Source: Bacteroidales bacterium (GTDB lineage Bacteria > Bacteroidota > Bacteroidia > Bacteroidales > UBA12077). From it: a stretch of 53,818 bases of DNA. The notes under the pieces are model-generated. The model did no database searches. It was not told where the DNA came from and saw only the letters and a program-made list of their open reading frames with translations. Location of the stretch: assembly GCA_028282785.1 (NCBI GenBank), contig JANQHE010000071.1:68423-122240 (forward strand), in the 5' to 3' direction. Below, in pieces: positions 6,336 to 50,173 of this stretch. The translations under genes and the position numbers were made by a program. Numbering within the stretch: position 1 is the stretch's first letter; each line of letters starts with the position of its first letter.

Positions 6336-9300
6336 ATGAAAAAGAAAACTATTATTATTTCAGCATTAGTTTTTGTTGTACTAATCGCTGCAGGCTATTT
6401 ATTTTTAATTAAAAAGCCCACAAAAAAAACGCAAAAAATTGACCCTGGATTTACAAGTTATATTTCAGGTTTTACTTCAGGTACGGTATCAAGCCAATCA
6501 TATATCCGGGTTGTATTATTGGATGGAGTGCCGGAAGTTGAAGAAAATACCGAAGCACCAAAAGGTATTTTAAATTTTAAGCCTGCCTTGAAAGGACAAG
6601 CTTTATGGATTAACAACAGAACAATTGAATTTAGGCCCGATGAACCCTTACCTTCAGGGCAAATGTTTAACGCTGAGTTTAATCTGGGAAAGGTAAAACA
6701 GGTTCCTGCCAAATTACAGAAGTTCGGTTTTGATTTTCAGGTAATAAAGCAATCATATGTTTCATATGTAAAAGGTATCAAACCATATGATAACAGGAAT
6801 TTAAAATTACAATCATTGGTTGGAGATATAAAAACTGCTGATTTTGCAAGTGCTGATGACATAGAAAAAATTCTGGAAGCAAAACAAGGTAACAGAAAAT
6901 TATCTGTTAAATGGATGTCGAATGCAGAAGGAAGAGATCATATGTTCCAGGTTGATTCCATTAAAAGAACAGAACAACAGGAAACCGTTATTTTAAAGTG
7001 GAACGGAGAAGTTATCGGATCGGATGAAAAAACCGAAGATAAAGTAGACATACCTGCATTAGGTGATTTTAAAATAATGAATATAGCTGTTACACAGCAA
7101 CCTTCTCAATTTATAACCTTATCTTTTTCTGATCCGCTAAATGAAAGACAAAATCTGGACGGATTAATTCGTTTGGAAAATGGAACATCGCTTCGTTTTA
7201 TTATTGAAGATAATGATGTGAAGATTTATCCAAGCGTAAGACAATTATCTTCTTCCAGGCTAATTGTTGATCCGGGCGTTAAGAACATTTTAGGATATAA
7301 ACTAAAAGAGTCTTTCACTTCAAGTGTCGAGTTTCAGAGCATAAAACCTAAAGTTGAGCTTATTGGTAAAGGAAATATACTTCCGAGCTCAAACGGGCTT
7401 ATTTTCCCGTTTAAATCGGTTAATTTAAGTGCTGTAAATGTTCGCATCATCAAAATATATGAAAATAACGTTTTACAGTTTTTTCAGGAAAATCATTACA
7501 ATGGTTACGATCGACTAAAAAGGGTTGGTAGAATTATATTTAACGATGAAGTTCCTCTAACTGCCGATCGGGCAGTGGATTATGGACAGTGGAACACATT
7601 TTCACTTGACTTATCTAAACTTATTCAGACAGAACCAGGTGCGATTTATAGAGTACAAATCAATTTTGATAAATCACAATCGCTATATCCTTGCCCCGGA
7701 GAAGAAGAAGTTACGGATGAATTTACTGAAGAAGAGGAAGAAGTTGATTTAAGTGATGTCGATTATTGGGCCTGGGGCGGTTATGACAGCTACGATTATT
7801 ATTACGATTATAGTTGGAGGGAGCGCGAAGACCCTTGTTCAAAATCATATTACATGCGTAACAATCAATTGGTTTCAAGAAATGTGCTTGCTTCGGATTT
7901 GGGAGTTATTGCCAAAGGTGGGAACGGTAAGGAAATGTTTTTTGCTGTTACCGATTTGATAACAACCAAACCGTTATCAGGTGTAAGTGTTGATATTTAT
8001 AATTTCCAACAACAAAAGATAGCTTCAACCACCACTGGAAACGATGGAATGGCGAAAATCGAAATAGATAAGAAACCATTTATATTGGTTGCCAAAAAAG
8101 GAACACAATTTGGCTATTTACGATTAGATGAAGGTTCGGCACTATCGTTAAGTATGTTTAATGTTGGAGGAAACAGGTCAAATAAAGGGATCAAGGGTTA
8201 CATATATGGTGAACGAGGTGTTTGGAGGCCGGGTGATTCTTTATTTGTAAGTTTTGTTTTAGAAGATAAAAACGATGTACTTCCTGAAAACCATCCTGTT
8301 GTATTTGATTTGATCGATCCTCGCGGTCAGATATATTCACGTCAGGTTAAATCTGAAAGTGTTGGCGGAATATATGATTTCCGTACTAATACAACAAACG
8401 ATGCGCCAACCGGTAATTGGTTAGCAAAGATCAAAGTTGGTGGATCAGTATTTGAAAAAACACTAAAAATTGAAACAATTAAACCAAATCGTTTAAAAAT
8501 AGAGCTGGATTTTGGTCAGGATATTTTAACAAGAGATTTCACAGGACAAGGTAATTTGGATGTTAAATGGCTTCACGGTGCCGTAGCTTCAAATTTAAGT
8601 GCCGATGTTGAAATGAAATTGTCGAAAACAAAAACTAAATTTAAAGATTATCCGGGTTTTATTTTCGACGATCCTTCGAAAAAATATTATGGCGATGAAT
8701 ATATGGTATTTGACGGACAGTTGGATGCAAACGGACAAGCAAGTTTTTCTCCGCAATTATACGCTCAGAGTAATGCTCCCGGTATGCTTAGGGCCGGTTT
8801 TAAAATGCGGGCATTCGAAACAAGCGGTGAATTTAGCATAGGTTCAAAATCAATTTTATATTCACCTTATTCCAGTTATGTTGGTATGAAAATACCGGAA
8901 GGAAAAGGATGGAATGGAGCATTAATGTCTGATAAAGCTCATACAATTCCTCTTGTAACGGTTAATGAAAATGGAAATCCCGTAAGTAGAAATAACTTAA
9001 AGGTAAAAGTGTACAAGTTACGTTGGAGATGGTGGTGGGAACGTAACGAGGATGACGATGTAGCGCGATACATACGAAATACAAGCAGTACATTAGAATT
9101 TACAACAGATGCTTCCACAAAGGATGGTGAAGGCAGTTTTGAGCTAAAACTGAAGAAAAATTATTGGGGCAGAATGTTAGTGATGGTCACTGACCCTGTG
9201 AGTGGTCATAGTACGGGTAAAGTCATATACATGGATTATTCAGGATGGTGGTCAAGAAAAGATAAAGATGCACCGGGCGGTGCAACCATGTTAACATTTG

Positions 9301-28700: not shown

Positions 28701-28794
28701 ATCCGGGGAATTTGATAAACATATTTTATTATTTTATGTTAGTGATTTAATAATGAGAAATAATTTTCTAACTTTATTACAAAAACTAACTAAA

Positions 28795-29520
28795 ATGATT
28801 AAACGCTCTAAAATCATATTATTAATACTTTCCTTAATAATTCTTCTTGGATCATTTACTAATTCTAAATTTTATTCTGATAAATATGAAAAGGTAAGGC
28901 AACGTATGGTACGCGAGCAAATTGTTGCACGTGGTGTTAAAGATCAAAAGGTTATCCAGGCAATGATTACTGTAAAACGACATTTATTTGTGCCGAAAAG
29001 CCAGGAAAGAATGGCGTATGAAGATCGGCCATTACCAATTGGAGAAGGGCAAACCATTTCGCAACCTTATATTGTCGCTTTAATGACAGAACAGTTGGAG
29101 TTAGATAAAAATATGAGTGTTTTGGAAATTGGAACAGGTTCGGGATACCAGGCTGCAATACTGGCTGAGATAGTAAAAGATGTTTACACAATTGAAATCA
29201 TTGAATCACTTGGATTAAGGGCAAAAAAAACACTTGAAGAACTTGATTATAAAAATGTTAAATTCAAAATTGGAGATGGTTATAAAGGTTGGAACGAAAA
29301 AGCTCCTTTCGATGCAATAATTGTTACATGTGCTCCTTCAAATATTCCAAAACCACTCGAAGAACAACTTAAAGAAGGTGGAAAAATGATCATACCCGTA
29401 GGTGGAAGTATTGCCCAGGAACTTGTTCTAATTGAAAAAAGAGAAGGCAAATTAATTAGAAAACAAGTTAGTTCAGTTCGTTTTGTACCAATGGTTCGTA
29501 ATGATGGTAAACGCTATTAA
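28795..29520 (+). CDS. pcm: Protein-L-isoaspartate O-methyltransferase, exported
   Basis: SAM-dependent methyltransferase that repairs isoaspartyl residues in aged proteins. VLEIGTGSGYQAAILAEI is the SAM-binding motif I; VREQIVARGVKDQKVIQAM and GEGQTISQPYIVALM are Pcm-specific. I chose the ATG at 28795 because it yields a clear hydrophobic leader (SKIILLILSLIILLGSF); the frame also opens at 28753. The leader suggests a periplasmic or membrane-anchored form, unlike cytosolic E. coli Pcm. Its last 113 bp recur as a degraded copy at 36681-36793. It converges with the minus-strand operon ending 27 bp later. Confidence 0.93.
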   Translation: MIKRSKIILLILSLIILLGSFTNSKFYSDKYEKVRQRMVREQIVARGVKDQKVIQAMITVKRHLFVPKSQERMAYEDRPLPIGEGQTISQPYIVALMTEQLELDKNMSVLEIGTGSGYQAAILAEIVKDVYTIEIIESLGLRAKKTLEELDYKNVKFKIGDGYKGWNEKAPFDAIIVTCAPSNIPKPLEEQLKEGGKMIIPVGGSIAQELVLIEKREGKLIRKQVSSVRFVPMVRNDGKRY

Positions 29521-29546
29521 TATAAATATCTTAACTAAATTGAAGT

Positions 29547-31769
29547 TTATTTCTTTATTGTAAACGTTCTTCTTTCTTTTATAATTTCACCGTTATCAGT
29601 AAAACCAAAAATGTCTATTACATAACTACCAATGTCATCTCCGGTATAGAAATCTAATTTAGTTTCTGTATTCTTTATTAAAATATTTGGTTGCCAAAAC
29701 AATGTATTTTTAAAATAAGGAATATTATTTTCCTTAATCATAGGAAACTCAAACTCCTCAAATTCATCAAACAACAAATAATTTACTCTTGAAGAGTTTT
29801 TTGGTAAAACAATATTATCTGATGTGGGATCTTTTGTAAACAGACTTATTATTCCTGAATAGGTTTTATCATATAGTAAATATTTTGTATTAACAATTTC
29901 TATTCTATCACATATTTTAGGATCTAAAGTAACTAGCTCATGATCGTTCTCATATATAACACCATTAATAAAAAAAATAGGTTTTCCCGGGATTATTTGT
30001 TTTGTATAATTGTCAATTATTTTATATTCTCTTTTGTTTTCGTTTGTTCTAACCGAAACATAATGAACCAGTTCATGAAAATACTCCAGAACCGAGTCTA
30101 GTTCCATATAATTTTCAAATTTAATTACATGATCTGGTTCTCCATAGAAACTATAATTTTTCCATTCTTTATTAATAGCTAGATTCTCAGTATATTCAGT
30201 TTTTACACCGGTTTTATAAACCTGTTGGATTCTATAATTTATATATAACTCGTGCAAATATTCTTTATATTCTTTACCAATATCAAATAGATATGGAATA
30301 CTCCAGGACTCATAATTATTCAAAAATGGATCATCAATTGTTATATGACAGTTTTTATCTTCAGATTTCACTTTCAACATTATATCTCTTCTTGACCGGT
30401 CTGGAAAAATCTTAAAATTAAATTTACCAATAGAATCGAGTTTATCAAAACTAATATCTGCAACAGAATCAATTACACATAAATAAATATTCTTATTTAA
30501 TAGTGGTTTTCTTTGAGCATTATAAACCCTACCTGTGATATTAATGCCATCATTTTCCAGGCTTCCAATATGAGGTTCGCCATTAGTTATGGAGTCAAAC
30601 AATATTAAATAATTTAAGGTAAAAGCGTCATCGATTGTATTCCCTCCTGATAATTTATTAAATATTGAATCCCTTTCTGGGATAGGCCTTTCAGGAATTT
30701 TTGTTACAGAGCAGGATATGATTCCATTCAATAATTTATTGCTGTTTAATTGTACAGAAATTGATACAGGTTCCCTAGTTTCATAATCGTCTTTTAACCC
30801 ATGAATAACCACTTCTGCAGAAACATTATCTGATGGATTTACGATTAATCGTTTCCACTTTACCTGTCCCAAATTGTTTTTAATTGTCAAAATGTTTTTA
30901 CTTACAAGCGAGTTTTTAGGTATATGAAAAATCATTTCATCATTAACCATTTGAATTGTTTTGAAAACATTTCCTAAATCATTCAGGTGGATTAGTAATT
31001 CATGATTGTTTATTCTGAACTTTTCAGTACTTCTTATGGAAAAAGTAAAAGAATCATTTTTAATATCAATTAAATTAACCACAATACCATCATTTTTTAC
31101 GGTAGGTAATTTAATGTTATAGGTTGTATCCGCACTGTAAGCGCTTAACCAATAAGTTTTATTAGCTGTTGGAATAAACGAGGCTGAGCGGGTATTTAGG
31201 TCAATTTCCGAAGATATCGTATCACCGTTTTCTGTTTTAATGTAAATGTTATTTATTATATCTATTTTTGAGTTGTATTTCCAATATATTTTATTTGTTA
31301 ATCCGGAAACTAAATCATTATTTTCTGTAGATAAAAGTATAGTACGATTTGTTCTTTTATTATTATTCGTATTTCTTTCCGGATTATAAATAAGTAAAGG
31401 TACATTACCATACAAAGACTTATATCCATAAGTTTTTATATTATATGTATAAGCAATAATTTGACAAAAACCGGTAGATAATGTATCTGAAATATTCAAA
31501 TAACCTTTAGCATTGCCATGATTTAAAAGCACTTTTTTTCTATTAATTGAAAAACCCTGGTTATTTATTAACTCAACGTAAGCAATTGCTTTTTCAGTTT
31601 TTGAATTAACATATAGTTTAAACCAGATTTCTTCTCCGGCGATATATTCTTGTCTGTCTGTTTTAATAATAACTTCTTGAATATTGTTATTATTAAAATT
31701 ATAGTTTTGGCTACTACTAACCAATACGTTCAATAAAAGCAAGGATAATACAATAATCTTTTTTTTCAT
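29547..31769 (-). CDS. MG2-domain secreted protein with plug-like C-terminus
   Basis: Exported 740-residue protein (signal peptide to about residue 20, VLVSSSQ). The start carries an MG2 macroglobulin-like signature, IKTDRQEYIAGEEIWFKLYV. A carboxypeptidase-regulatory-like Ig segment (INITGRVYNAQRKPLLNKN) appears near 405-430, and a stretch near 615-670 (GKPIFFINGVIYENDHEL, then ICDRIEIVNT and YSGIISLFT) is reminiscent of TonB-receptor plug domains. Similar MG2/plug hybrids are common, uncharacterised Bacteroidota proteins. It is last in a tight four-gene operon (7 bp after the DUF4249 gene), so it probably works with the receptor at the outer membrane. No enzymatic motif is visible. Confidence 0.82.
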   Translation of the reverse strand: MKKKIIVLSLLLLNVLVSSSQNYNFNNNNIQEVIIKTDRQEYIAGEEIWFKLYVNSKTEKAIAYVELINNQGFSINRKKVLLNHGNAKGYLNISDTLSTGFCQIIAYTYNIKTYGYKSLYGNVPLLIYNPERNTNNNKRTNRTILLSTENNDLVSGLTNKIYWKYNSKIDIINNIYIKTENGDTISSEIDLNTRSASFIPTANKTYWLSAYSADTTYNIKLPTVKNDGIVVNLIDIKNDSFTFSIRSTEKFRINNHELLIHLNDLGNVFKTIQMVNDEMIFHIPKNSLVSKNILTIKNNLGQVKWKRLIVNPSDNVSAEVVIHGLKDDYETREPVSISVQLNSNKLLNGIISCSVTKIPERPIPERDSIFNKLSGGNTIDDAFTLNYLILFDSITNGEPHIGSLENDGINITGRVYNAQRKPLLNKNIYLCVIDSVADISFDKLDSIGKFNFKIFPDRSRRDIMLKVKSEDKNCHITIDDPFLNNYESWSIPYLFDIGKEYKEYLHELYINYRIQQVYKTGVKTEYTENLAINKEWKNYSFYGEPDHVIKFENYMELDSVLEYFHELVHYVSVRTNENKREYKIIDNYTKQIIPGKPIFFINGVIYENDHELVTLDPKICDRIEIVNTKYLLYDKTYSGIISLFTKDPTSDNIVLPKNSSRVNYLLFDEFEEFEFPMIKENNIPYFKNTLFWQPNILIKNTETKLDFYTGDDIGSYVIDIFGFTDNGEIIKERRTFTIKK

Positions 31770-31776
31770 ATCTTTT

Positions 31777-32970
31777 TTAAAATATCCAAAAATCAGGTTT
31801 TACCTCAGAATCTGAAAATAAAGTACAATCAACACAAAACCTTTGATCGGTAAAACTTATACTGGCCGGATTGCCTAACAATTCCGGTTTTACAAAAATT
31901 GCATAAGTAAAACCTTTGTATTCGGAGTTTAAAAACTCATCAATTGTCATGTTTTGTTTTTCGCATGAACCATAGATATCCTGAAAATATATACCTAAAA
32001 CCGGAGATTTAAATGATAACCTTTTAACCGACTTATAAGCTGCATCAAAATATCCATATACCTTAATATTTTCATTGTTGCATTCAATATTAGATTTAGG
32101 ATTATAAGGTATATTATCAAAAACACTTCCATTATCAATATTATTTTCTTTCATAAACTCCCAAAACTTATATACACTTTCGTTAATTGCGTATTGTTTT
32201 ACTAAGATACTATACCCATATTTTGGCCTGGGATTTGTTTCATCCATATGTAAAATAGTCTTTCCTGTTAATTCATCCGTATTATAGCTAGATAAATCTT
32301 CTAAAATTATATCATATGACTGTTCTTCACTCCAACAAGATTTACGATTCTCATTCTGATCAAAATAAAATATGTCATCCCAATTTCTAAACTCAACTTC
32401 ATTGGCCATCCATTTCTGTTTAATCTCCCAGGTTGCTACATAATCCCATTTTAAAAAATAATTTTCGTTACTAATATCACCCCATTTGGTATCTAATTTA
32501 ATTTCAATACCTTCTAACTCTTCATCATATTCAAAATTGTATGCCGATTTGTATTCAATATATAAAGAATCAATATCCGGCCCCTTTAACAATTTTACTA
32601 TATCCGAAACATATTCTACATCATCAATAGTTCTGATCATTAATTGATATTCATGATCCATACTTGCTTTAAATTCTGGCCTTGTTAAATATTGGCCAGG
32701 GGATTTTTCCGTTAATACTTCAATATTACCATCTTGGTCTACAATGGTTACGATTGCATCTTCTTCAAATATTGCGGAATCACCATCAATTGATAATGTT
32801 CTGGTAAGTAAAACTTCATAAGGGCCATCCTCATTTGTTATTAAACCCTGAACTACTAATAGGTTTTCATAACTATCAATATTATGTTCATAAGGTTGAA
32901 CGCACCTATTAGTTATAATTGCAAAAATCAATACAATATGCAGTAAAAATCTATTTGGTTTAAAGTTCAT
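31777..32970 (-). CDS. DUF4249 family lipoprotein
   Basis: Exported protein of the DUF4249 family, known to be encoded beside TonB-dependent receptors and thought to be a surface partner of unknown ligand. The leader ends in AIITNRC (Cys about 23), an imperfect lipobox. VVQGLITNEDGPYEVLLTRT and IVTIVDQDGNIEVLTEKSPGQY followed by YQLMIRTIDDVEYVSD are the Ig-like N-terminal features of the family, and the C-terminal part has CVDCTLF. Length 397 is typical. It is 8 bp after the receptor gene and 7 bp before the MG2 protein, so translation is likely coupled. Confidence 0.88.
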   Translation of the reverse strand: MNFKPNRFLLHIVLIFAIITNRCVQPYEHNIDSYENLLVVQGLITNEDGPYEVLLTRTLSIDGDSAIFEEDAIVTIVDQDGNIEVLTEKSPGQYLTRPEFKASMDHEYQLMIRTIDDVEYVSDIVKLLKGPDIDSLYIEYKSAYNFEYDEELEGIEIKLDTKWGDISNENYFLKWDYVATWEIKQKWMANEVEFRNWDDIFYFDQNENRKSCWSEEQSYDIILEDLSSYNTDELTGKTILHMDETNPRPKYGYSILVKQYAINESVYKFWEFMKENNIDNGSVFDNIPYNPKSNIECNNENIKVYGYFDAAYKSVKRLSFKSPVLGIYFQDIYGSCEKQNMTIDEFLNSEYKGFTYAIFVKPELLGNPASISFTDQRFCVDCTLFSDSEVKPDFWIF

Positions 32971-32978
32971 AGTAAAAT

Positions 32979-35678
32979 CTAAAAATTAAATTTATACGTA
33001 ATTGTTGGAATAGGATTTCCAAATATCGATAATTGATAACCCTGTATTCTATTCTTATTATTTTCAAAATAAACAGAATAAGGATTATTTCTACCTAAAA
33101 CATTATAAACAGAAAATATCCATAAACTTGAAAATATTTTATTCCTTTTCAAACTACCTCTGAAAGAGATTGAAATGTCCCACCTTAAATAATAAGGTAA
33201 CCTGAATTCATTTCTATCTGAATATATTAAATAATAATTACCATCGAGTTCAATTTTTGATACCGGTAAAGTTGCAGGAGTTCCGGAACTATAGTTTATT
33301 ACATTAGATAAAATTATCCTTTTTGTTGGTTCATAATTAATAACAGCAGATAAATTGTTTGGTTTATCATAACTTGAAGGATAGTAACTACCTTCATTAA
33401 TTTGTTTTTCACTTATCTCATTATCTGACTTTATAAATGATCGCGAATATGTGTAAGATATCCAGCCTTTTAATCTCCCTTTATTTTTTTTAAGCAATAA
33501 TTCTAACCCGTAAGATTTACCCTTGGCATTTACAATTTCTGTTTCAGGGTGAGGATTAAGCTCAAAATTACTTCCGTTTACAAAATCTTTTATGTTCTTT
33601 ATGTTTTTATAGTAAACTTCTACAGATGTGCTAAACATTTTATTCTGAAATTCCCTATTATATCCAATTGAATAATGATCGGCAATTTGCGGTGGTATAT
33701 TACCATTACTCAACTGCCAAGAACTAACCGGTGTAATTGCCTGGCTATTTGTTAGTATACTTATATACTGCCTGTTTCTATTGTAACAAAAGTTTATATT
33801 TTGGTTTAATCTGAAACTATAATTACCTGAAATTCTTATTTCAGGACCAATGTAAGATTTAATAATTTCATTATTAGCATATTGAACGGTATCAACAATA
33901 TAATCTTCCAAAAGGATATTATCTTTATAGCTGAACTCATTATTCGGCCCTAAAAAGAAAAATGAGGATAACCTAATTCCAGCATCAATTCTGAAATTAG
34001 AAAATAATTCTACTTTATCTCCTAAATAAATAGAGGCTTGCAAGGCTTTTTCCTTATTTAATTTAACAGGATTAATTACGGACTCACTATTATATGGTTC
34101 AATATTCCAAGGTTTTACTTCATGGTAAATTAACTCAAGTCCACTTGTAAAATTATTTTTTTCACCAACTAGAAATTTAAACTTGGTATTAAGCTTATAA
34201 TCTTGTAAACTATGTTCACTAATGCTGGAGAATCCTTCGGCAGGGTTTTCTGTTCTTTGATTTATATAGTTTGTATAACCTAAAACGCTTTCCCAAATCA
34301 AACCATTTTCGAATATTTTTTTATACTTCAATGAACTTATTCTATTTGCGAAAGCAAAGGATTGTTCATCATTGAACGAAAAATCATCATAACTATCATT
34401 AAAAAATAAATTAATATTTGAGGAAGAATCTGGTTTAAAGTTTAGTTTTATTAAATAATCGTAAAACATAGCATCGCTTCTTTCCAACTCATCAACATCG
34501 ATTAGATTTAATACCCAATTTGAATATGTTCCTCTATAGCTTGTATTAACACTTAACTTATTTTTAATAATTGGTCCGCTGAATGCTATATTAGAAGATA
34601 CCGGACTAACACCTCCTTCAAGCTCAATTTTATTATTATTTCCTTTTTTAATCTCAATATCGTATACTGAAGATAATCGATTTCCGTATTCAATGGGCAT
34701 ACTTGCTTTATATAAACTTGCATTTTCAATGGAATAAGGATTAATTCCCGGAAAAAATCCAAAGAAATGGGAGTGTGAATAAGTATGCATTCCATCCACT
34801 AGTATTAAATTTTGATCTCCTTTTCCTCCTCTTACACTAAAAGACATATCCATTTCACCCACAGATTGTATTCCTGGTAATAACAATGAATGTTTGATAA
34901 TGTCCACCTCACCCATAAAAGATGGTAACTCGTTTATTTCTAGCAATTTGAGTTTTTTGAATCCAATAGTTTGCTTTTCCTTTTTTTCTTCGGCACCAAT
35001 AACAGTTACTTCGGATATCAAATTATTTTTTCGCACCAGCTCAACATTTAAATTACCTTTGGAGAATAACTGGACTTTTCTTAATGTTGGTTCCATTCCA
35101 ACATATCTGTAATTTAATATATGATATCCTTTAGGCAGGAATATAGTATATTCACCATTTTTATTTGTAGTTGTTCCAATTATACCTTCATCCGCAATTA
35201 TTTGAACTCCTTCTAAGGCTTTACCCGTAGATTGTTCAGTTATAACTCCTGAAATTTCGCCTACCTTATTCTTACTTCCAGGTACTCCTATTCTATGTAT
35301 TTGTTTATCAACATCTTTACTCTGCAAATTTACATTTGTATTTACAATAGTCTTATTGTTTACGTATAAATTATTTTTAGATAAGTCAATTTTTTCAATT
35401 TCTGAAAGAATTATATTATGATCCTTATAAATAAAATATCTCAACTGATTGTTGTATTTAAAAGACCTTTCTAATAATTGTTCTAAACTATCCGTATTAA
35501 TTTGATAAACAAAATATTTCTCTAGCCAATCTTCTTTAAAATAAAATTTAACACCATGCTTTTCCTCGTTATTTTCTATGAATTCTTTAAGCGTTATAAC
35601 AGGTAATTCATTTTTCTGTCCATATAGTATTAGTGAAAATTTTATTAGTAAAAAGATTATAAACAAAGATTTTTTCAT
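32979..35678 (-). CDS. TonB-dependent receptor with STN and CarboxypepD_reg domains
   Basis: Outer-membrane active transporter of 899 residues. Signal peptide to about 20, then an STN-like module (25-95), often a route to sigma/anti-sigma signalling. A carboxypeptidase-regulatory-like domain follows at about 142-222 (GEISGVITEQSTGKALEGVQI), and the plug at about 235-350 (MSFSVRGGKGDQNLILVDGMHTYS). The 22-stranded barrel ends in IPTITYKFNF. No separate FecI/FecR genes are in the neighbourhood. Substrate unknown. It is co-transcribed with an upstream 222-residue secreted protein (12-bp gap) and the downstream DUF4249 and MG2 proteins, defining one uptake module. Confidence 0.93.
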   Translation of the reverse strand: MKKSLFIIFLLIKFSLILYGQKNELPVITLKEFIENNEEKHGVKFYFKEDWLEKYFVYQINTDSLEQLLERSFKYNNQLRYFIYKDHNIILSEIEKIDLSKNNLYVNNKTIVNTNVNLQSKDVDKQIHRIGVPGSKNKVGEISGVITEQSTGKALEGVQIIADEGIIGTTTNKNGEYTIFLPKGYHILNYRYVGMEPTLRKVQLFSKGNLNVELVRKNNLISEVTVIGAEEKKEKQTIGFKKLKLLEINELPSFMGEVDIIKHSLLLPGIQSVGEMDMSFSVRGGKGDQNLILVDGMHTYSHSHFFGFFPGINPYSIENASLYKASMPIEYGNRLSSVYDIEIKKGNNNKIELEGGVSPVSSNIAFSGPIIKNKLSVNTSYRGTYSNWVLNLIDVDELERSDAMFYDYLIKLNFKPDSSSNINLFFNDSYDDFSFNDEQSFAFANRISSLKYKKIFENGLIWESVLGYTNYINQRTENPAEGFSSISEHSLQDYKLNTKFKFLVGEKNNFTSGLELIYHEVKPWNIEPYNSESVINPVKLNKEKALQASIYLGDKVELFSNFRIDAGIRLSSFFFLGPNNEFSYKDNILLEDYIVDTVQYANNEIIKSYIGPEIRISGNYSFRLNQNINFCYNRNRQYISILTNSQAITPVSSWQLSNGNIPPQIADHYSIGYNREFQNKMFSTSVEVYYKNIKNIKDFVNGSNFELNPHPETEIVNAKGKSYGLELLLKKNKGRLKGWISYTYSRSFIKSDNEISEKQINEGSYYPSSYDKPNNLSAVINYEPTKRIILSNVINYSSGTPATLPVSKIELDGNYYLIYSDRNEFRLPYYLRWDISISFRGSLKRNKIFSSLWIFSVYNVLGRNNPYSVYFENNKNRIQGYQLSIFGNPIPTITYKFNF

Positions 35679-35690
35679 AATGGCAGAAAT

Positions 35691-36359
35691 TTATAAAAGA
35701 GATTCACAAAATTCCATAAGTATAATAATATTTGGTATGTGCTCCGAGTCAAATTTTAATTTGTTTTTTTTAATAAATACTTTTATGTCCTTTTTGTTAT
35801 CATAAAATATTTCCATTAAATCTTTTTTTCTATTTATTTGATAAGCATTATTATTATAAATTATATAGTGATATTGCTTTTCCACAAATTTTTCAATGTT
35901 ATCTATACCATACATTTCATCTATTTTTTTCTCATAACCAATTAAATAAACCAAGCTATTTTCATATATTATCTGAAAAAATTCAATGTTTTTGTTCAAT
36001 CCGGCAGTAGTTGCATACTTTTTTGTGAAAAAGTACTTATTACCATTTATAGTTATTTCAAATTCTTTGATATATTTATCGTTCATCACTATAAATTTGG
36101 GTAGTGAATGATTAACCTGTTGATTTACAACAACATTCTGATTTAGCAGATCGTACAATACTTGTTGGTTCAGGAAAACTTGTGATTTATAATTTAACCA
36201 ACCTGAACTGAATAAATTAGTTTTAAAAAAAGGATGCCCTTCTGCATTTTCAATTTGGTTTTGATATATTCTTCCATTCAATAATTCGTTGGAGTTAGTA
36301 GATTGTGCATGAATAGAATTTACTATAATCATGAAAAGAAATAAGCTTAGTACTTTCAT
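35691..36359 (-). CDS. Secreted protein of unknown function, first gene of TonB operon
   Basis: I recognise no family. A 222-residue exported protein with a signal peptide (VNSIHAQ). A strand-rich middle (KEFEITINGNKYFFTKKYA) and a C-terminal helix-rich lysine region (DKKDIKVFIKKNKLKFDSEH) are visible. It ends 12 bp before the receptor start and so likely belongs to the operon. An accessory role in the receptor complex is inference from position only. Confidence 0.75.
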   Translation of the reverse strand: MKVLSLFLFMIIVNSIHAQSTNSNELLNGRIYQNQIENAEGHPFFKTNLFSSGWLNYKSQVFLNQQVLYDLLNQNVVVNQQVNHSLPKFIVMNDKYIKEFEITINGNKYFFTKKYATTAGLNKNIEFFQIIYENSLVYLIGYEKKIDEMYGIDNIEKFVEKQYHYIIYNNNAYQINRKKDLMEIFYDNKKDIKVFIKKNKLKFDSEHIPNIIILMEFCESLL

Positions 36360-36457
36360 CTAATAAAAAATAATAATTGGATATTTGACTAAATAAATAA
36401 AAATGGTTTAAAATTATATAATATAATTTTTACTTTGGGTTCTTTTTATGAAAAATA

Positions 36458-36662
36458 TGATAATTTAGATAAGAACTTGTCTCTATTGATAAACATTTAA
36501 ATATACCCTGAATTTTCTGCAGGAGGATTTATTCTTCCTAGATTGAAAACGGGTAGAATAGATTACTGTTTTTATGGTTGTTCTTATTGGGCAGGGTGAA
36601 AGAACAGAAGAAGAACAGTTAATATTTTTAATGCATTACATGAGAAAGAAAGTGGAAAATGT
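36458..36662 (+). pseudogene. Degraded relic of an M19 dipeptidase gene
   Basis: Fragments match the N-terminal third of the intact dipeptidase at 39366: SIDKHLNIP-stop against SIDTHSDTP, then after a deletion LPRLKTGRID against FPRMKAGKLD, then a stretch equivalent to GQGERTEE, then one matching FNALH. There are at least one frameshift, in-frame stops and two internal deletions. The zinc motif HSD has become HLN. It reads in the same direction as the intact gene and is followed 18 bp later by a pcm relic. Seen directly by comparing the two stretches by eye. Confidence 0.75.
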
Positions 36663-36680
36663 TTATTCAATAGAGAAGGA

Positions 36681-36793
36681 GTATTGCTCAGGAGCTAGTT
36701 TTCATTGAAAAAAAGAAAGGCAAATTAATTAGAAAACAAGTTAGTTCATTTCGTTTTGTACCAATGGCTCGTAATGATGGGAAAGATTATTAA
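36681..36793 (+). pseudogene. Relic of the 3' end of pcm
   Basis: These 113 bp align without gaps to the last 113 bp of pcm (29408-29520), differing at about 15 positions by eye. The reading frame is kept, with ELVFIEKKKGKLIRKQVSS against ELVLIEKREGKLIRKQVSS, down to the stop codon. Nothing of the 5' part remains. The retained frame and mainly conservative changes imply the copy once was functional or copied from a functional relative. It lies 54 bp before the S9 peptidase start. Confidence 0.85.
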
Positions 36794-36847
36794 ACTTTTT
36801 AGTTTTTTTTACGTCTATTAGGAAATCTTAATTAAAAAAACACTTTT

Positions 36848-39265
36848 ATGAAAAAATTTTTAGTATTAACCTTATTAAGCACAATACTGTTTAGTGCTTA
36901 CAGTCAAATCGACCTTAAATATCAGGCTCCTCCACAAGAAATTATGGAATTAGCTGACGTGAAACTACCACCTTTTGTAAGAATGAATGAAGAAGGTACA
37001 TATGCAATATTATTGTACAGAAATCAATACAAAAGTATTGAAGAACTTTCCGAAACAGAACTAAGGTTAGGCGGACTTAGAATCAATCCGGTCACAAATA
37101 TTTACAGTAGAACCCGTTATTATAATAAAATTGCTGTTTTAGATGTAAATAAAGGAAAAGATGCCAGTATTGAAAATCTACCTGAAAAAGTAAGGTTATC
37201 TAATTTTTCATGGTCGCCTGATCAGGCTAAAATGGCCTTTACTAACACTACCCTTAAAGGAGTAGAGTTGTGGGTTTTAGATATAAAAAAGGCTTCAGCT
37301 ACAAAACTTACGGAAGACAATCTAAATGCAAATGCAGGAATCCCCTATGAATGGTTTCAGGATGGTTCTGCATTATTAGTTAAAACATTACCGAAAGATA
37401 AAAAAGAATTAATTAATAAAACAATTACTGTTCCGACCGGGCCAACAGTTTCTATAAACGAGGGACAGAAAGCTCAAAATAGAACCTACCAGGACTTACT
37501 TAAGGATAAAAGTGATGAGTTTAACTTTGAACAGTTGGTAAGATCCGATATTTATAAAGTTGATCTAAAAGGAAATAAATCACTTTGGAAAGAAACAGCA
37601 ATGTATCGTCAGTTAAATTTTTCTCCTGATGGGAATTATATTTTAGTAACTACCATTGAAAGACCATTTTCCTATATAGTTCCTTATTACAGATTTCCGC
37701 AAACTACAATGATCTATAATAAGGACGGTAAGGAAGTTAAAAAAATATTAGAAGTACCTTTAATTGAGGAATTACCAAAAGGATTTATGGCTGAACGTAA
37801 AGGAATGAGAGAGCTTGATTGGAGAGCAGACAAACCTGCTACTTTATATTGGGCAGAAGTTTTAGATGAAGGTGATCCGGAAGTAAAAGTTGAATATCGC
37901 GATGAGATTTTTGAATTAGATGCTCCATTTACTGCTGAAAAAAGAAGCTTACTAAAAACTAAGAACAGATTTTATCAGTTGAATTGGGGGAATGACAAAA
38001 TGGCCATTGCAGTTGATTTTTGGTGGAATAACAGGAATGTAAAGGCATATGTTTTTAATCCATCAGATTCTAAACAAGAACCGGAAATTATTCAGGATTA
38101 CAATTATCAAGATCGTTATAATGATCCTGGAAGCCCTCAAATGGTAAGAAATAAATATGGTAAAAACGTACTTCTACTTGAAGGCAGTAATATGTTCTTA
38201 CTTGGTGATGGTTACTCTGATGAAGGCATTAGACCGTTTATTGACGAATTTAATCTTGAAACTAAAGAATCTAACAGATTATGGCAAGCTGACGGAAAAG
38301 AAACTTTAGAAAGTATTTATGATATAAAAGATTTAAAGGAGGGAAAAATTTTAACACGCATTGAATCCAAAAGTAAATACCCGAATTATTATTTCAGAAA
38401 TATTAAAACCGGTGATGTAAATCCTGTTACTCAATTTGAAAATCCGTTTAAAAGTTTACAGGGAGTTCATAAAGAAGTAATAAAATATAAACGTGACGAT
38501 GGCCTGGAGCTATCAGGTACATTGTATTTACCAATCGGCTATGAAAAAGGGAAAAAATATCCTATGGTTATGTGGGCATATCCCGAAGAATTTAAGGATA
38601 AAAGTACAGCCGGACAAGTAACTTCATCTCAACATGAGTTTGTTTATCCGTGGTATGGTTCACCAGTTTTCTGGGTAGCACGTGGCTACGTTGTACTTGA
38701 TGATGCTTCTTTCCCGGTTGTTGGCGAAGGTGAAGAAGAACCTAATGATTCATTTATTCCACAGTTGGTTGCAAATGGGAAAGCTGCTATCGATGCTGTT
38801 GATAAATTGGGATATATTGATAGAAATAAAGTTGCCGTTGGTGGCCACTCTTATGGCGCATTTATGACCGCAAACCTTTTAACTCATTCAAATGATTATG
38901 CTGCCGGTATTGCCAGAAGCGGAGCTTATAACAGAACTTTAACACCATTCGGATTCCAGTCGGAAGAAAGAAACTATTGGGAAGCACCCGAGATTTACTA
39001 TGAAATGTCTCCGTTTATGCATGCCGATGAAATGAAAACTCCTTTATTGCTTATCCATGGAGCAGCTGACAATAATTCCGGAACATACACCATGCAAAGT
39101 GAGCGTTATTTTAATGCTTTAAAAGGATTAGGAGCAACTGTTCGTTTAGTTCTTCTTCCAAAAGAAAGTCATGGTTATGTGGCAAGAGAATCGGTTTTAC
39201 ATATGCTTTGGGAACAAGATCAGTGGCTGGAGAAATATGTTAAAAACAGAGAATTAAACAAATAA
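36848..39265 (+). CDS. S9 family serine peptidase (prolyl oligopeptidase type)
   Basis: Exported 805-residue peptidase. Signal peptide to about 20 (FSAYSQ), then a beta-propeller to about 545, then an alpha/beta-hydrolase catalytic domain. The triad is Ser668 in GGHSYGAF, Asp741 in HGAADNNSG and His775 in KESHGYV. The arrangement resembles glutamyl- or acylaminoacyl-peptidase-like S9 enzymes of Bacteroidota. It probably releases peptides or dipeptides in the periplasm, which the next gene, an M19 dipeptidase, could finish. A strong terminator separates the two genes, so they are not a simple operon. Confidence 0.93.
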   Translation: MKKFLVLTLLSTILFSAYSQIDLKYQAPPQEIMELADVKLPPFVRMNEEGTYAILLYRNQYKSIEELSETELRLGGLRINPVTNIYSRTRYYNKIAVLDVNKGKDASIENLPEKVRLSNFSWSPDQAKMAFTNTTLKGVELWVLDIKKASATKLTEDNLNANAGIPYEWFQDGSALLVKTLPKDKKELINKTITVPTGPTVSINEGQKAQNRTYQDLLKDKSDEFNFEQLVRSDIYKVDLKGNKSLWKETAMYRQLNFSPDGNYILVTTIERPFSYIVPYYRFPQTTMIYNKDGKEVKKILEVPLIEELPKGFMAERKGMRELDWRADKPATLYWAEVLDEGDPEVKVEYRDEIFELDAPFTAEKRSLLKTKNRFYQLNWGNDKMAIAVDFWWNNRNVKAYVFNPSDSKQEPEIIQDYNYQDRYNDPGSPQMVRNKYGKNVLLLEGSNMFLLGDGYSDEGIRPFIDEFNLETKESNRLWQADGKETLESIYDIKDLKEGKILTRIESKSKYPNYYFRNIKTGDVNPVTQFENPFKSLQGVHKEVIKYKRDDGLELSGTLYLPIGYEKGKKYPMVMWAYPEEFKDKSTAGQVTSSQHEFVYPWYGSPVFWVARGYVVLDDASFPVVGEGEEEPNDSFIPQLVANGKAAIDAVDKLGYIDRNKVAVGGHSYGAFMTANLLTHSNDYAAGIARSGAYNRTLTPFGFQSEERNYWEAPEIYYEMSPFMHADEMKTPLLLIHGAADNNSGTYTMQSERYFNALKGLGATVRLVLLPKESHGYVARESVLHMLWEQDQWLEKYVKNRELNK

Positions 39266-39271
39266 TGGAAA

Positions 39272-39299
39272 AGAGCTGCTTTTTTGCAGCTCTTTTTTT
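39272..39299 (+). terminator. Rho-independent terminator after S9 peptidase
   Basis: AGAGCTGC (39272-39279) pairs with GCAGCTCT (39286-39293) across six T, followed by seven T. Six bases after the peptidase stop codon. Confidence 0.9.
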
Positions 39300-39365
39300 C
39301 TTTAGCAATTAAACATTTTAAGATTCATTTCGTCTAAGCATGTATACTTTAAAAATTCCAAATAG

Positions 39366-40580
39366 ATGAAATTTAAGAACCTTTTAAGCCTTTTGGCTAT
39401 TATACTTTTGTTTATTTCTTGCGAGCAAGATTTGAATAAAAAAGCAGATAAAATCCATAAAGAAATCATTTCAATAGATACTCATTCCGATACACCTTTA
39501 AATTTTTTAGATGAAGATTTTGATATTGGTAAATGGAACAATTTTGATTCGACCCATTCAAGAATTGATTTTCCCCGTATGAAAGCCGGTAAATTAGATG
39601 CAGCATTTATGGCAGTTTTTATAGGACAAGGTGAAAGAACCGAAGAAGGGAATTTAAAGGCAAAAAACAGAGCCATAAAAATATTCAATGCATTGCATGA
39701 TAAAGTTGGAAAATACCCTGAACAGGCCGAAATTGCTTATAAATCAAACGATGTATACGAAATAAAAAGAAAAGGTAAAAGTACAGTTTATATAGGAGTT
39801 GAAAATGGATACCCTATTGGAAATGATATTAATAACGTTAAAGAATTTTATGATTTAGGAGCAAGATATATTACACTATGCCATACCAGGAACAATGATA
39901 TATGCGATTCATCAACCGATAAAAAGGGAGCAGAATTTAACGGTTTAAGCGAGTTTGGGGAAGAAGTTGTAAAAGAAATGAATCGTTTGGGAATGATAAT
40001 AGATGTTTCCCATATTTCCGATTCTGCTTACTTTGATGTACTAAAACTTTCCAAAACTCCTATTATTGCCTCACATTCCAGTGTTAGAGCTATTTGCAAT
40101 AGCCCGAGAAACTTTTCTGATGAAATGTTATATGCTTTAAAAGAAAACGGAGGTGTAATTCAAATCTGTATATTAAGCGATTATATTAAAAAACCAAAAC
40201 CATATCCTGAAAGAGATTCAGCATTTAAAGCTTTAAGAGTTAAATGGAAAGGCTATCAGGGATTAACTGAAGAACAATATAATCAGGCGAGTAAAGAATG
40301 GCGGGCATTACAGATTAAATATCCTAAGGAATTAGCAACAGTAGCCGATGCCGTAGATCACATAGATTATGTTGTAAATAAAATAGGGATCGATTATGTC
40401 GGTATCGGAACAGATTTTGATGGAGGAGGAGGGTTAGCAGATTGCAGAGATGCAAGTGAATTGAAGAATTTTACCATTGAATTATTAAAAAGGGGATATA
40501 CCAAAGAAGAAATAAAGAAGATATGGGGTGAAAACTTTCTTAGGGTTTTCAGAGAAGTTGAAAAGGTAGCTGAATTGTAA
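39366..40580 (+). CDS. M19 family membrane dipeptidase, lipoprotein
   Basis: Predicted zinc dipeptidase of the renal dipeptidase family, lipid-anchored by its leader (LLFISC, Cys about 19). Zinc-site elements: His40 and Asp42 in SIDTHSDTPLNF, a Glu in YIGVENGYPIG, and the His of IIDVSHISDSAYFDV; IIASHSSVRAICNSPRN and DYVGIGTDFDGGGGLADC are also family-typical. Length 404 is normal. It lies 100 bp after the S9 peptidase; the pair plausibly act in sequence on peptides. A degraded second copy of its 5' part lies at 36458-36662. Confidence 0.93.
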   Translation: MKFKNLLSLLAIILLFISCEQDLNKKADKIHKEIISIDTHSDTPLNFLDEDFDIGKWNNFDSTHSRIDFPRMKAGKLDAAFMAVFIGQGERTEEGNLKAKNRAIKIFNALHDKVGKYPEQAEIAYKSNDVYEIKRKGKSTVYIGVENGYPIGNDINNVKEFYDLGARYITLCHTRNNDICDSSTDKKGAEFNGLSEFGEEVVKEMNRLGMIIDVSHISDSAYFDVLKLSKTPIIASHSSVRAICNSPRNFSDEMLYALKENGGVIQICILSDYIKKPKPYPERDSAFKALRVKWKGYQGLTEEQYNQASKEWRALQIKYPKELATVADAVDHIDYVVNKIGIDYVGIGTDFDGGGGLADCRDASELKNFTIELLKRGYTKEEIKKIWGENFLRVFREVEKVAEL

Positions 40581-49003: not shown

Positions 49004-50173
49004 TTATCTGGCGTTTTTAAAAGCTAGTTCAAGTTTTTCAACCAATCGTTTATATACATTTTCCTGGGTTCCAATACCATCTATATTGTAAATATTCTTC
49101 TGTTTTTGATAATAATCCAATACTGGTGCTGTTCGTTTCTGGAAGTTTTCAAGCCTTCGGATTATAACCTCGGTATCCATATCATAATAGCGGGCTCTAT
49201 TGGTTTTACTTCTTGCAGTTAAGCGTTTAATCGATTCCAGAGTTGGAACATCCAAATTAAATACACATGATACGGAAGATCCTAATTTACGAAGTAATCC
49301 ATCCAAAATATACGCTTGAACAATTGTTCGGGGATATCCTTTAAAGAAAAAACCCCGTGCTTCAGGATGCGTTTGTATTTGTTTTTCTATCAATTTTATG
49401 GCAAACTCATCAGGAACAATTTCTCCACGTTCCATATATTCTTTTGCTAATAAACCAATCTGACTTCCTTTTTCAATTTCTTTACGCAGCAATGAACCCG
49501 TAGAAATATATACCAAGTCATATTTTTCAGCTAATAACTTTCCTTGTGTTCCTTTTCCCGAGCCGGGAGGTCCGAAAAGAACAACATTTAACCATGTTTT
49601 AGTAAGAGATTGTTCCACAACATTGGTGATTCTTTGGAATATCTCATCAATTGTACCAACGCCGTCAACTGAGTAACAGATTCCTTTATCTTTATAGAAA
49701 TCAGCTACAGGAACAGTTTTGTTCTTATATTCTTGTAGTCTGTTCTCAATAACTTCCATGGTATCATCAATTCTATTTTCTTTTTGTGCTCTTTCCAGCA
49801 TACGTTCCATTAAAATATCCTGGGGAACTTCAAGAGTTACCATACAGTTCAAAGAAGTATTTAATTTTAGAAGTAAACCTTCAAGTATATAAGCCTGAAC
49901 AACAGTACGCGGAAAACCATCAAATAAAAATCCGTTTACCTCCGTATTTGTTTTTATTTTTTTTTCAATGATCTGAACAATAATTTCATCCGAAACAAGT
50001 CCTCCTTTTTCAATTACCGATTTTGCCTGCATTCCAAGATCAGATCCTTCCGCAATTTCTTCTCGTAATATATCTCCGGTTGAAATATATGCCAGGTTAT
50101 ACTTTTCAATCAACTTGCGCGATTGAGTTCCTTTTCCAGCCCCTGGTGGGCCAAATAATGCAATATTAAACAT
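49004..50173 (-). CDS. adk: Tandem two-domain adenylate kinase
   Basis: One 389-residue protein with two complete adenylate-kinase domains (about 1-190 and 195-389). Domain 1: P-loop GPPGAGKGT (8-16), STGDILREE, DGFPRT (85-90) and RIDDTMEVIENRL, all canonical, so active. Domain 2: P-loop GPPGSGKGT (201-209) kept, but STGS replaces STGD, KGYPRT (278-283) replaces DGFPRT, and the RIDD element reads RYYDMD; the AMP- and ATP-contacting residues are therefore altered. LID regions are short, as in this family. It is the only adenylate kinase in this window. A normal bacterial adk is about 190-215 residues. Confidence 0.93.
   Translation of the reverse strand: MFNIALFGPPGAGKGTQSRKLIEKYNLAYISTGDILREEIAEGSDLGMQAKSVIEKGGLVSDEIIVQIIEKKIKTNTEVNGFLFDGFPRTVVQAYILEGLLLKLNTSLNCMVTLEVPQDILMERMLERAQKENRIDDTMEVIENRLQEYKNKTVPVADFYKDKGICYSVDGVGTIDEIFQRITNVVEQSLTKTWLNVVLFGPPGSGKGTQGKLLAEKYDLVYISTGSLLRKEIEKGSQIGLLAKEYMERGEIVPDEFAIKLIEKQIQTHPEARGFFFKGYPRTIVQAYILDGLLRKLGSSVSCVFNLDVPTLESIKRLTARSKTNRARYYDMDTEVIIRRLENFQKRTAPVLDYYQKQKNIYNIDGIGTQENVYKRLVEKLELAFKNAR

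Follow-up and report, generated by a model that had tools for sequence, protein, structure and literature searches.

Two gene scraps upstream of an S9 peptidase gene in a Bacteroidales genome: a possible join between diverged versions of one locus

Two broken gene remnants that lie next to each other in a Bacteroidales genome, one from an M19 dipeptidase gene and the other from pcm, probably mark the place where two versions of one gene neighbourhood were joined, which would make them a case of ordinary genome evolution and not a new system. Specifically, we give positions 28753-40580 of the window (the whole stretch of 53,818 nucleotides analysed here) close to an even chance of having arisen when two versions of this locus, already diverged, were fused. 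Confidence in this reading is moderate overall, because the informative stretches are short and the clade tests undecided. The case is a small one: gene order alone suggests a tandem duplication, while the site patterns of the relics lean towards two diverged versions. The locus raises no long-standing question, and literature searches, as far as their listings go, turned up nothing about it.

Anatomy of the locus and its two relics

The window has a G+C content of 32% and belongs to a genome (G000) of 5.5 Mb in 81 contigs. The locus contains, in this order, an NTP transferase gene, the sodium-solute symporter gene SSF451, the intact pcm (hereafter pcm1), an antisense four-gene TonB set, the two scraps, an S9 gene, an M19 gene and an ion channel gene. 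On the plus strand, pcm1 (protein-L-isoaspartate O-methyltransferase; 255 aa; Pfam PCMT, E 4e-69) occupies 28753..29520, the gene of the S9 prolyl-oligopeptidase-family peptidase (Pfam Peptidase_S9, E 9e-23; 84% to congener G004) 36848..39265, and the intact M19 dipeptidase gene (Pfam Peptidase_M19, E 1e-106) 39366..40580. The TonB operon is read from the minus strand. Its gene 1 (35691..36359; 222 aa) has no Pfam match and is followed by a TonB-dependent receptor with a carboxypeptidase-regulatory-like domain (gene 2, 32979..35678; Pfam CarbopepD_reg_2 and Plug), a DUF4249 protein (gene 3, 31777..32970; Pfam DUF4249, E 2e-33) and a protein of 740 aa (gene 4, 29547..31769), also without Pfam match, whose homologues stand last in similar gene sets of two other genomes, G017 and G022. 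Elsewhere in the window, 49004-50173 encodes a protein with two tandem adenylate kinase domains (Pfam ADK, two stretches) that shows 82-89% identity in the congeners where it was mapped.

Between the operon and the S9 gene, the two relics follow each other head to tail; alignment bears out the earlier note in placing both on the plus strand. The relic pcm (36681..36793) comprises the last 37 codons of the gene, including the stop codon; read from 36683, its frame stays open for 36 codons up to that stop. As the earlier note had described to within a few bases, it aligns without gaps to 29408-29520 of pcm1, with 99/113 identical bases and 14 mismatches. A blastn search within the window extended this match to 36645-36793 against 29371-29520 (125/151, E 4e-37), and the local alignment score of 169 compares with a maximum of 33 in 100 shuffles. 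The relic M19 runs from ~36452 to 36680, where a gapped alignment follows the gene from ~codon 25 to ~codon 122, its ends being judged by eye. The broken dipeptidase sequence previously reported at 36458-36662 is thus real, but that span was ~18 bases short. Here the pairwise match is weaker, 67/90 for 36524-36613 against 39561-39648 of the resident M19 gene, although it is also significant (E 7e-9; local score 61 vs a maximum of 40 in 100 shuffles). In a multiple alignment the scrap shows frameshifts, stops and deletions of ~46 and ~22 bases, and neither a start nor a signal peptide could be recognised. The earlier proposal that the relics derive from a second copy of pcm and M19 is supported.

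The relics adjoin at ~36681. The pentamer ATTGC occurs at corresponding places in the relic pcm (36683), pcm1 (29410) and the resident M19 gene (39732), but so short a match (five bases) cannot establish how the join arose. When the 20 genomes of the genus were searched with the pcm protein, a match to the 3′ end only (residues 210-255) was found solely in the genome of the window. The spacer between the relic pcm and the S9 gene (36794..36847, plus strand), taken together with the stop codon of the relic, starts with TAAACTTTTT, as does the sequence that follows pcm in G004 and G011; the spacer of G001 is unlike it, G015, G002 and G012 share just the first six bases, and the sequence 3′ of pcm1 also differs from it. 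Given this spacer, we take the relic pcm to be the tail of the resident pcm.

Gene order in related genomes

The window proteins were mapped onto 20 stretches fetched from 18 genomes of relatives. Within the genus, 19 other genomes were sampled, 12 of which have a readable pcm-to-M19 interval. The other seven are cut by contig ends (G005 and G009), have the genes on different contigs (G014), show a split locus (G007) or are without usable pcm or M19 (G008, G010 and G019, left out of all pcm and M19 trees). The earlier note had suggested looking for relatives in which pcm, S9 and M19 are neighbours without the TonB operon, and three of the 12 readable congeners have this arrangement (G001, G004 and G011, the M19 gene of G004 being cut by a contig end). 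In nine of the 12, pcm and M19 are found without S9: seven of them (G002, G006, G012, G013, G015, G017 and G018) have a gap of ~60-170 bp between both genes, and two have one antisense gene there, OsmC in G016 and GNAT in G003. In an outgroup genus, M19 is present in three of five genomes, in all three of which pcm lies ~100-340 bp before it with no S9 match at the locus. Because the outgroup has pcm-M19 without S9, this is the older order, S9 having been added within the genus. No S9 scraps were found in the pcm-M19 loci of the nine S9-less congeners, which is compatible both with one gain followed by losses and with several gains.

Of 14 new loci, the remaining 11 come from other genera and lack any pcm match within 1.5 kb. 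Additionally, pcm lies near S9 in two of 80 named loci, PKTC01000521.1 (uncultured Marinilabiliales) and JAIFLC010000209.1 (Bacteroidetes bin); we infer that these are G004 and G001, respectively. SSF451 stands between the NTP transferase gene and pcm in three of 13 mapped relatives (G002, G012 and G015), all of them S9-less; at 81-82% identity to relatives, the SSF451 of the window is no closer to them than a vertically inherited gene.

No match to the TonB operon was found in the pcm-to-M19 interval of any of the 12 readable congeners and, since it is missing from all of them, the earlier suggestion that the operon is an insertion in this lineage holds. Its position is that of OsmC in G016 and of GNAT in G003, all three being antisense; insertions into the pcm-M19 gap have thus recurred within the genus, and related species have different genes there. 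The best relative of operon gene 2 among 58 other genomes, found in G017, has 53% identity. A search for direct repeats at the operon ends gave just one 10-base match, which is inverted. Operons of this type (29547-36359 in the window), consisting of a 222-aa protein, a TonB-dependent receptor, one to three DUF4249 proteins and a 740-aa protein, recur in G017 and G022 (L290:4884-13999 and L291:2405-8825). The idea that the M19 scrap had arrived with the operon was rejected, as the stretches read around the operons of G017 and G022 (14.0 and 11.9 kb) contain no pcm or M19 match.

Some of the other loci have features of their own. The GNAT gene between pcm and M19 of G003 (L086:9601-10470) was recognised from two matched stretches. 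An OsmC-like gene lies antisense just upstream of M19 in both G016 (L080:10501-11007) and G007 (L077:10911-11471); G007 has an S9 gene before OsmC, and G016 does not. The 5′ parts of the M19 genes of G016 and G007 group together (92/94), which hints at an exchange of the OsmC-M19 segment. In G007, ~81 kb separate pcm from S9-OsmC-M19 on the same strand and contig (G007:C9:988380-1074827; L076, L077, L292 and L293), of which ~35 kb were mapped, and the best match to a pcm relic before the displaced S9 gene is of only 27 bp (E 0.04).

Affinities and decay of the resident genes and the relics

In the right part of the locus, G000 groups with G004 in the S9 tree (100/99), in the M19 protein tree (85/92, with a G004 row of just 68 residues) and in the DNA tree of the M19 5′ part (96/89). 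As species marker, parC gives (G016,(G004,G000)), in which G004 + G000 is supported at 98/97 and the trio at 87/89. With alaS, neither G016 nor G004 emerges as the sister: on 14 rows, without G005 and G009, which another alaS tree did include, G000 + G016 has support of 66/47 and G000 + G004 p 0.43. In trees without a G004 row, G000 is grouped with G016 by gyrA (94/90) and by both genes at the flanks, those for the NTP transferase (94/94) and the ion channel (97/93). Two other markers were of no use: rpoB has no match in G000, a genome rated 100% complete, and was perhaps lost at a contig end, while the large gene at 6336 is too patchy (13/20 genomes). Since the S9 tree and parC both join G000 with G004, the S9-M19 right half is best read, from these sequence comparisons, as resident and inherited in common with G004. 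Its import from a G004-like donor had initially seemed likely, as the NTP transferase and the ion channel group G000 with G016, and was dropped because parC places G000 with G004 (98/97; G000 + G016 p 0.02). At the left, pcm1 is 80-82% identical to its counterparts in G004, G016 and G015 and has no clear foreign affinity; the tree of its body joins G000 with G004 at just 84/65.

A special likeness between the relic pcm and pcm1 is limited to a core of 60 bp (36717..36776, plus strand), where the relic matches 29444-29503 of pcm1 in 58/60 positions and the other 15 species in 38-48/60, so that conservation of this stretch does not by itself account for the match. Before the core (36681-36716), its matches out of 36 are 28 to pcm1, 29 to G007, 28 to G002, and 27 each to G004 and G016; after it (36777-36793), they are, out of 17, 13 to pcm1, 12 to G004, 13 to G016 and 15 to G017. 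For all 15 other species, the ranges outside the core are 24-29/36 and 9-15/17. The core was chosen after the profile had been seen, which applies to every comparison of core and flanks, and the sequence outside it amounts to just 53 bp. With this proviso, the difference between 58/60 inside and 41/53 outside has a Fisher p of 0.003, and the sparsest 60-bp window of mismatches a permutation p of 0.022. Sites at which pcm1 departs from the majority base (computed, here and for M19, without G004) behave similarly: the relic carries the pcm1 base at 11/11 of them in the core and at 1/8 outside (p 0.0002, with the core post hoc), compared with 5/11 and 3/8 for G004 and 7/12 and 4/8 for G016. A tract of near-identity with sharp edges within diverged copies is a feature of gene conversion and, although this tract was picked post hoc, the pattern is conversion-like, as if a patch of ~60 bp had been exchanged between two pcm copies. 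With all 114 columns, pcm1 comes out as the sequence closest to the relic in 1978/2000 resamplings. Clade tests allow its grouping with pcm1 (p 0.46), G016 (0.32) or G004 (0.19) and disfavour G011 (0.025) and G017 (0.015).

The affinity of the relic M19 is less well defined. Its alignable columns are few (147-196, depending on the set). On the wider set, which is without G004, it has 128/196 identities to the resident gene, 133 to G012, 131 to G002 and G018, and 116-130 to the other eleven; on stricter columns, the resident gene and that of G017 are tied as nearest (108/147). At 43 sites where the resident has a rare base, the relic shares that base at 10 and has the majority base at 20 (9:13 on stricter columns), proportions that resemble those of ordinary congeners such as G011 (12:21) and G017 (14:23). 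For the sister G004, the counts are 9 resident-rare and 4 majority bases out of 15 sites, which differs from the relic with p 0.046. When decay of the resident M19 was simulated at 15-30%, none of 2000 copies per level was as weakly attached to it as the relic on either column set; at 35%, the strict set gave a fraction of 0.0005 and the wider set still 0. This simulation ignores change of the resident since copying and, therefore, speaks against a recent copy and not against an old one. Clade tests allow the relic to group with the resident (p 0.33), G016 (0.26) or G018 (0.26) and disfavour G012 (p 0.028), which belongs to the clade that bears SSF451. Taken together, the site patterns support, but do not prove, that the relic M19 is not a sister of the resident gene.

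The relics have also decayed to different degrees. The relic M19 departs from otherwise invariant columns at 16/74 positions and the relic pcm at 2/46 (p 0.009); with the strict set, the values are 12/63 vs 2/46 or 2/47, depending on the span (p 0.02-0.04). Outside its core, the relic pcm has 0/19 such departures, and the contrast with M19 is maintained (p 0.036). At 90%-conserved columns, the counts are 19/99 for M19 vs 3/55 for pcm (p 0.03), or 12/82 for the strict M19 set (p 0.10). There are several indels in the M19 scrap and none in the pcm scrap. Because of this unequal decay and the indels, M19 had probably died well before pcm was cut, unless conversion slowed the decay of the pcm scrap. 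The earlier note had seen here a natural experiment in gene decay: there are indeed two decaying relics, but they may not be of equal age.

Origin of the relic pair

In the history that we favour tentatively, two versions of the locus would have met. Version A, on the left, would be an S9-less pcm-M19 locus from another, unsampled lineage, whose gap had received a TonB-type operon in antisense orientation and whose M19 lacked its start; as SSF451 is next to pcm only in S9-less relatives (3/13 mapped), it is counted for version A as being of the S9-less kind. Version B, on the right, would be the resident pcm-S9-M19, which the sister species also has. A crossover, perhaps at ATTGC, would have joined M19 of A (at ~codon 122) to pcm of B (at ~codon 219), and the product would consist of A to the left of the join and of B to its right. 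Of the working genes, pcm would then come from A and S9 and M19 from B, while the M19 5′ piece and the pcm 3′ piece would be left at the join as non-coding scraps. A patch of ~60 bp would also have passed between both pcm copies. Since decay has gone further in the relic M19 than in the relic pcm, M19 of version A would have to have died before the fusion. Both gene orders do occur in relatives as separate whole loci, the right part goes with G004, the special likeness of the relic pcm to pcm1 is confined to the core, the relic M19 is only loosely attached to the resident gene, and S9 need not have been lost, since most readable congeners (9/12) and the outgroup lack S9 between pcm and M19. 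Against this history count the shortness of the informative stretches, the lack of clear foreign kin for pcm1, whose body tree joins G000 with G004 at 84/65, the tie between the resident gene and that of G017 as nearest to the relic M19 on stricter columns, the disfavoured grouping of the relic M19 with G012 (p 0.028), clade tests that allow relic and resident to be sisters (pcm 0.46, M19 0.33), the nearness of the relic pcm to pcm1 over all columns, and an SSF451 no closer to relatives than vertical descent would make it. None of the relatives examined has version A with its TonB operon.

Two kinds of duplication have to be weighed against such a fusion. Under the first, a pcm-M19 or pcm-S9-M19 unit would have been doubled before the split from G004, with the first M19 dying early, the second pcm surviving until a late fusing deletion, and other lineages losing the extra copy. 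No import would then be required to explain why the relics stand as far from the resident genes as separate species do, why they have decayed unequally (16/74 vs 2/46), or how a patch came to be exchanged between two long-lived pcm copies. However, no second copy of the pcm 3′ end was found in the rest of the genus (19 genomes, several of which are incomplete), and G004 has a different antisense frame, read by eye, in the ~0.35 kb that separate pcm from the end of its contig, which forces the assumption of losses in G004, G016 and others. We regard this old duplication as the main rival of the fusion, though as rather unlikely. The earlier note had proposed that the pcm-S9-M19 unit was duplicated in tandem and that its first S9 was then lost; in the recent form of this history, the entire unit would have suffered a later deletion, with the first S9 lost or replaced by the TonB operon, or else a segment ending inside pcm and M19 would have been duplicated, a single event that yields both scraps. 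Order and strand fit, the three genes are neighbours in relatives, pcm1 is the sequence closest to the relic pcm when all columns count (1978/2000), the clade tests permit it and ATTGC is shared at the join. By contrast, the special similarity of the relic pcm to pcm1 is limited to 60 bp, the resident gene does not stand out as the closest to the relic M19, which resembles none of the copies simulated at decay of up to 30%, the scraps have decayed unequally, and there is no S9 trace in 29500-36850 (E no better than 0.05 with blastn and 1.3 with tblastn), although complete loss would look alike. A recent duplication is, consequently, disfavoured and seems to us rather improbable, and with an S9-less order common among congeners, the proposed loss of a first S9 finds no support.

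The join might also be an artefact in which contigs of two strains were misassembled, as the genome may be a metagenome assembly and two locus versions side by side are what a misjoin would produce. Nevertheless, the M19 scrap is itself decayed, and the handful of bases shared at the join is far below the word length used by assemblers, which makes this explanation very improbable.

Returning to the fusion, its broader formulation is somewhat more doubtful: an S9-less allele class with a TonB operon would have displaced an S9-bearing one through a join inside genes. S9 and M19 would have been retained, a diverged homologue would have taken the place of pcm, and conversion would have patched the tail left from the old pcm. 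If true, the pcm/M19 gap would repeatedly have received cargo in this genus, namely S9, OsmC, GNAT and the TonB operon.

Parts of this locus resemble known systems. As in the relics of local tandem duplications in bacteria, there are head-to-tail scraps on the same strand with intact copies flanking them, but here, save for the 60-bp tract, the distance of the scraps from the resident genes is roughly that of genes from other species, and the middle gene, S9, has left no remnant. Homology-facilitated illegitimate recombination of incoming DNA combines long homology on one side with a few bases on the other, where genes are cut at the second join. The few-base join with cut genes is alike, although in this case the side with long homology was not located and no donor was found. 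Finally, intragenomic gene conversion between repeated genes leaves short tracts of near-identity within more diverged copies and, although it measures just ~60 bp and was found post hoc, so that conversion is not proven, the core of the relic pcm is such a tract.
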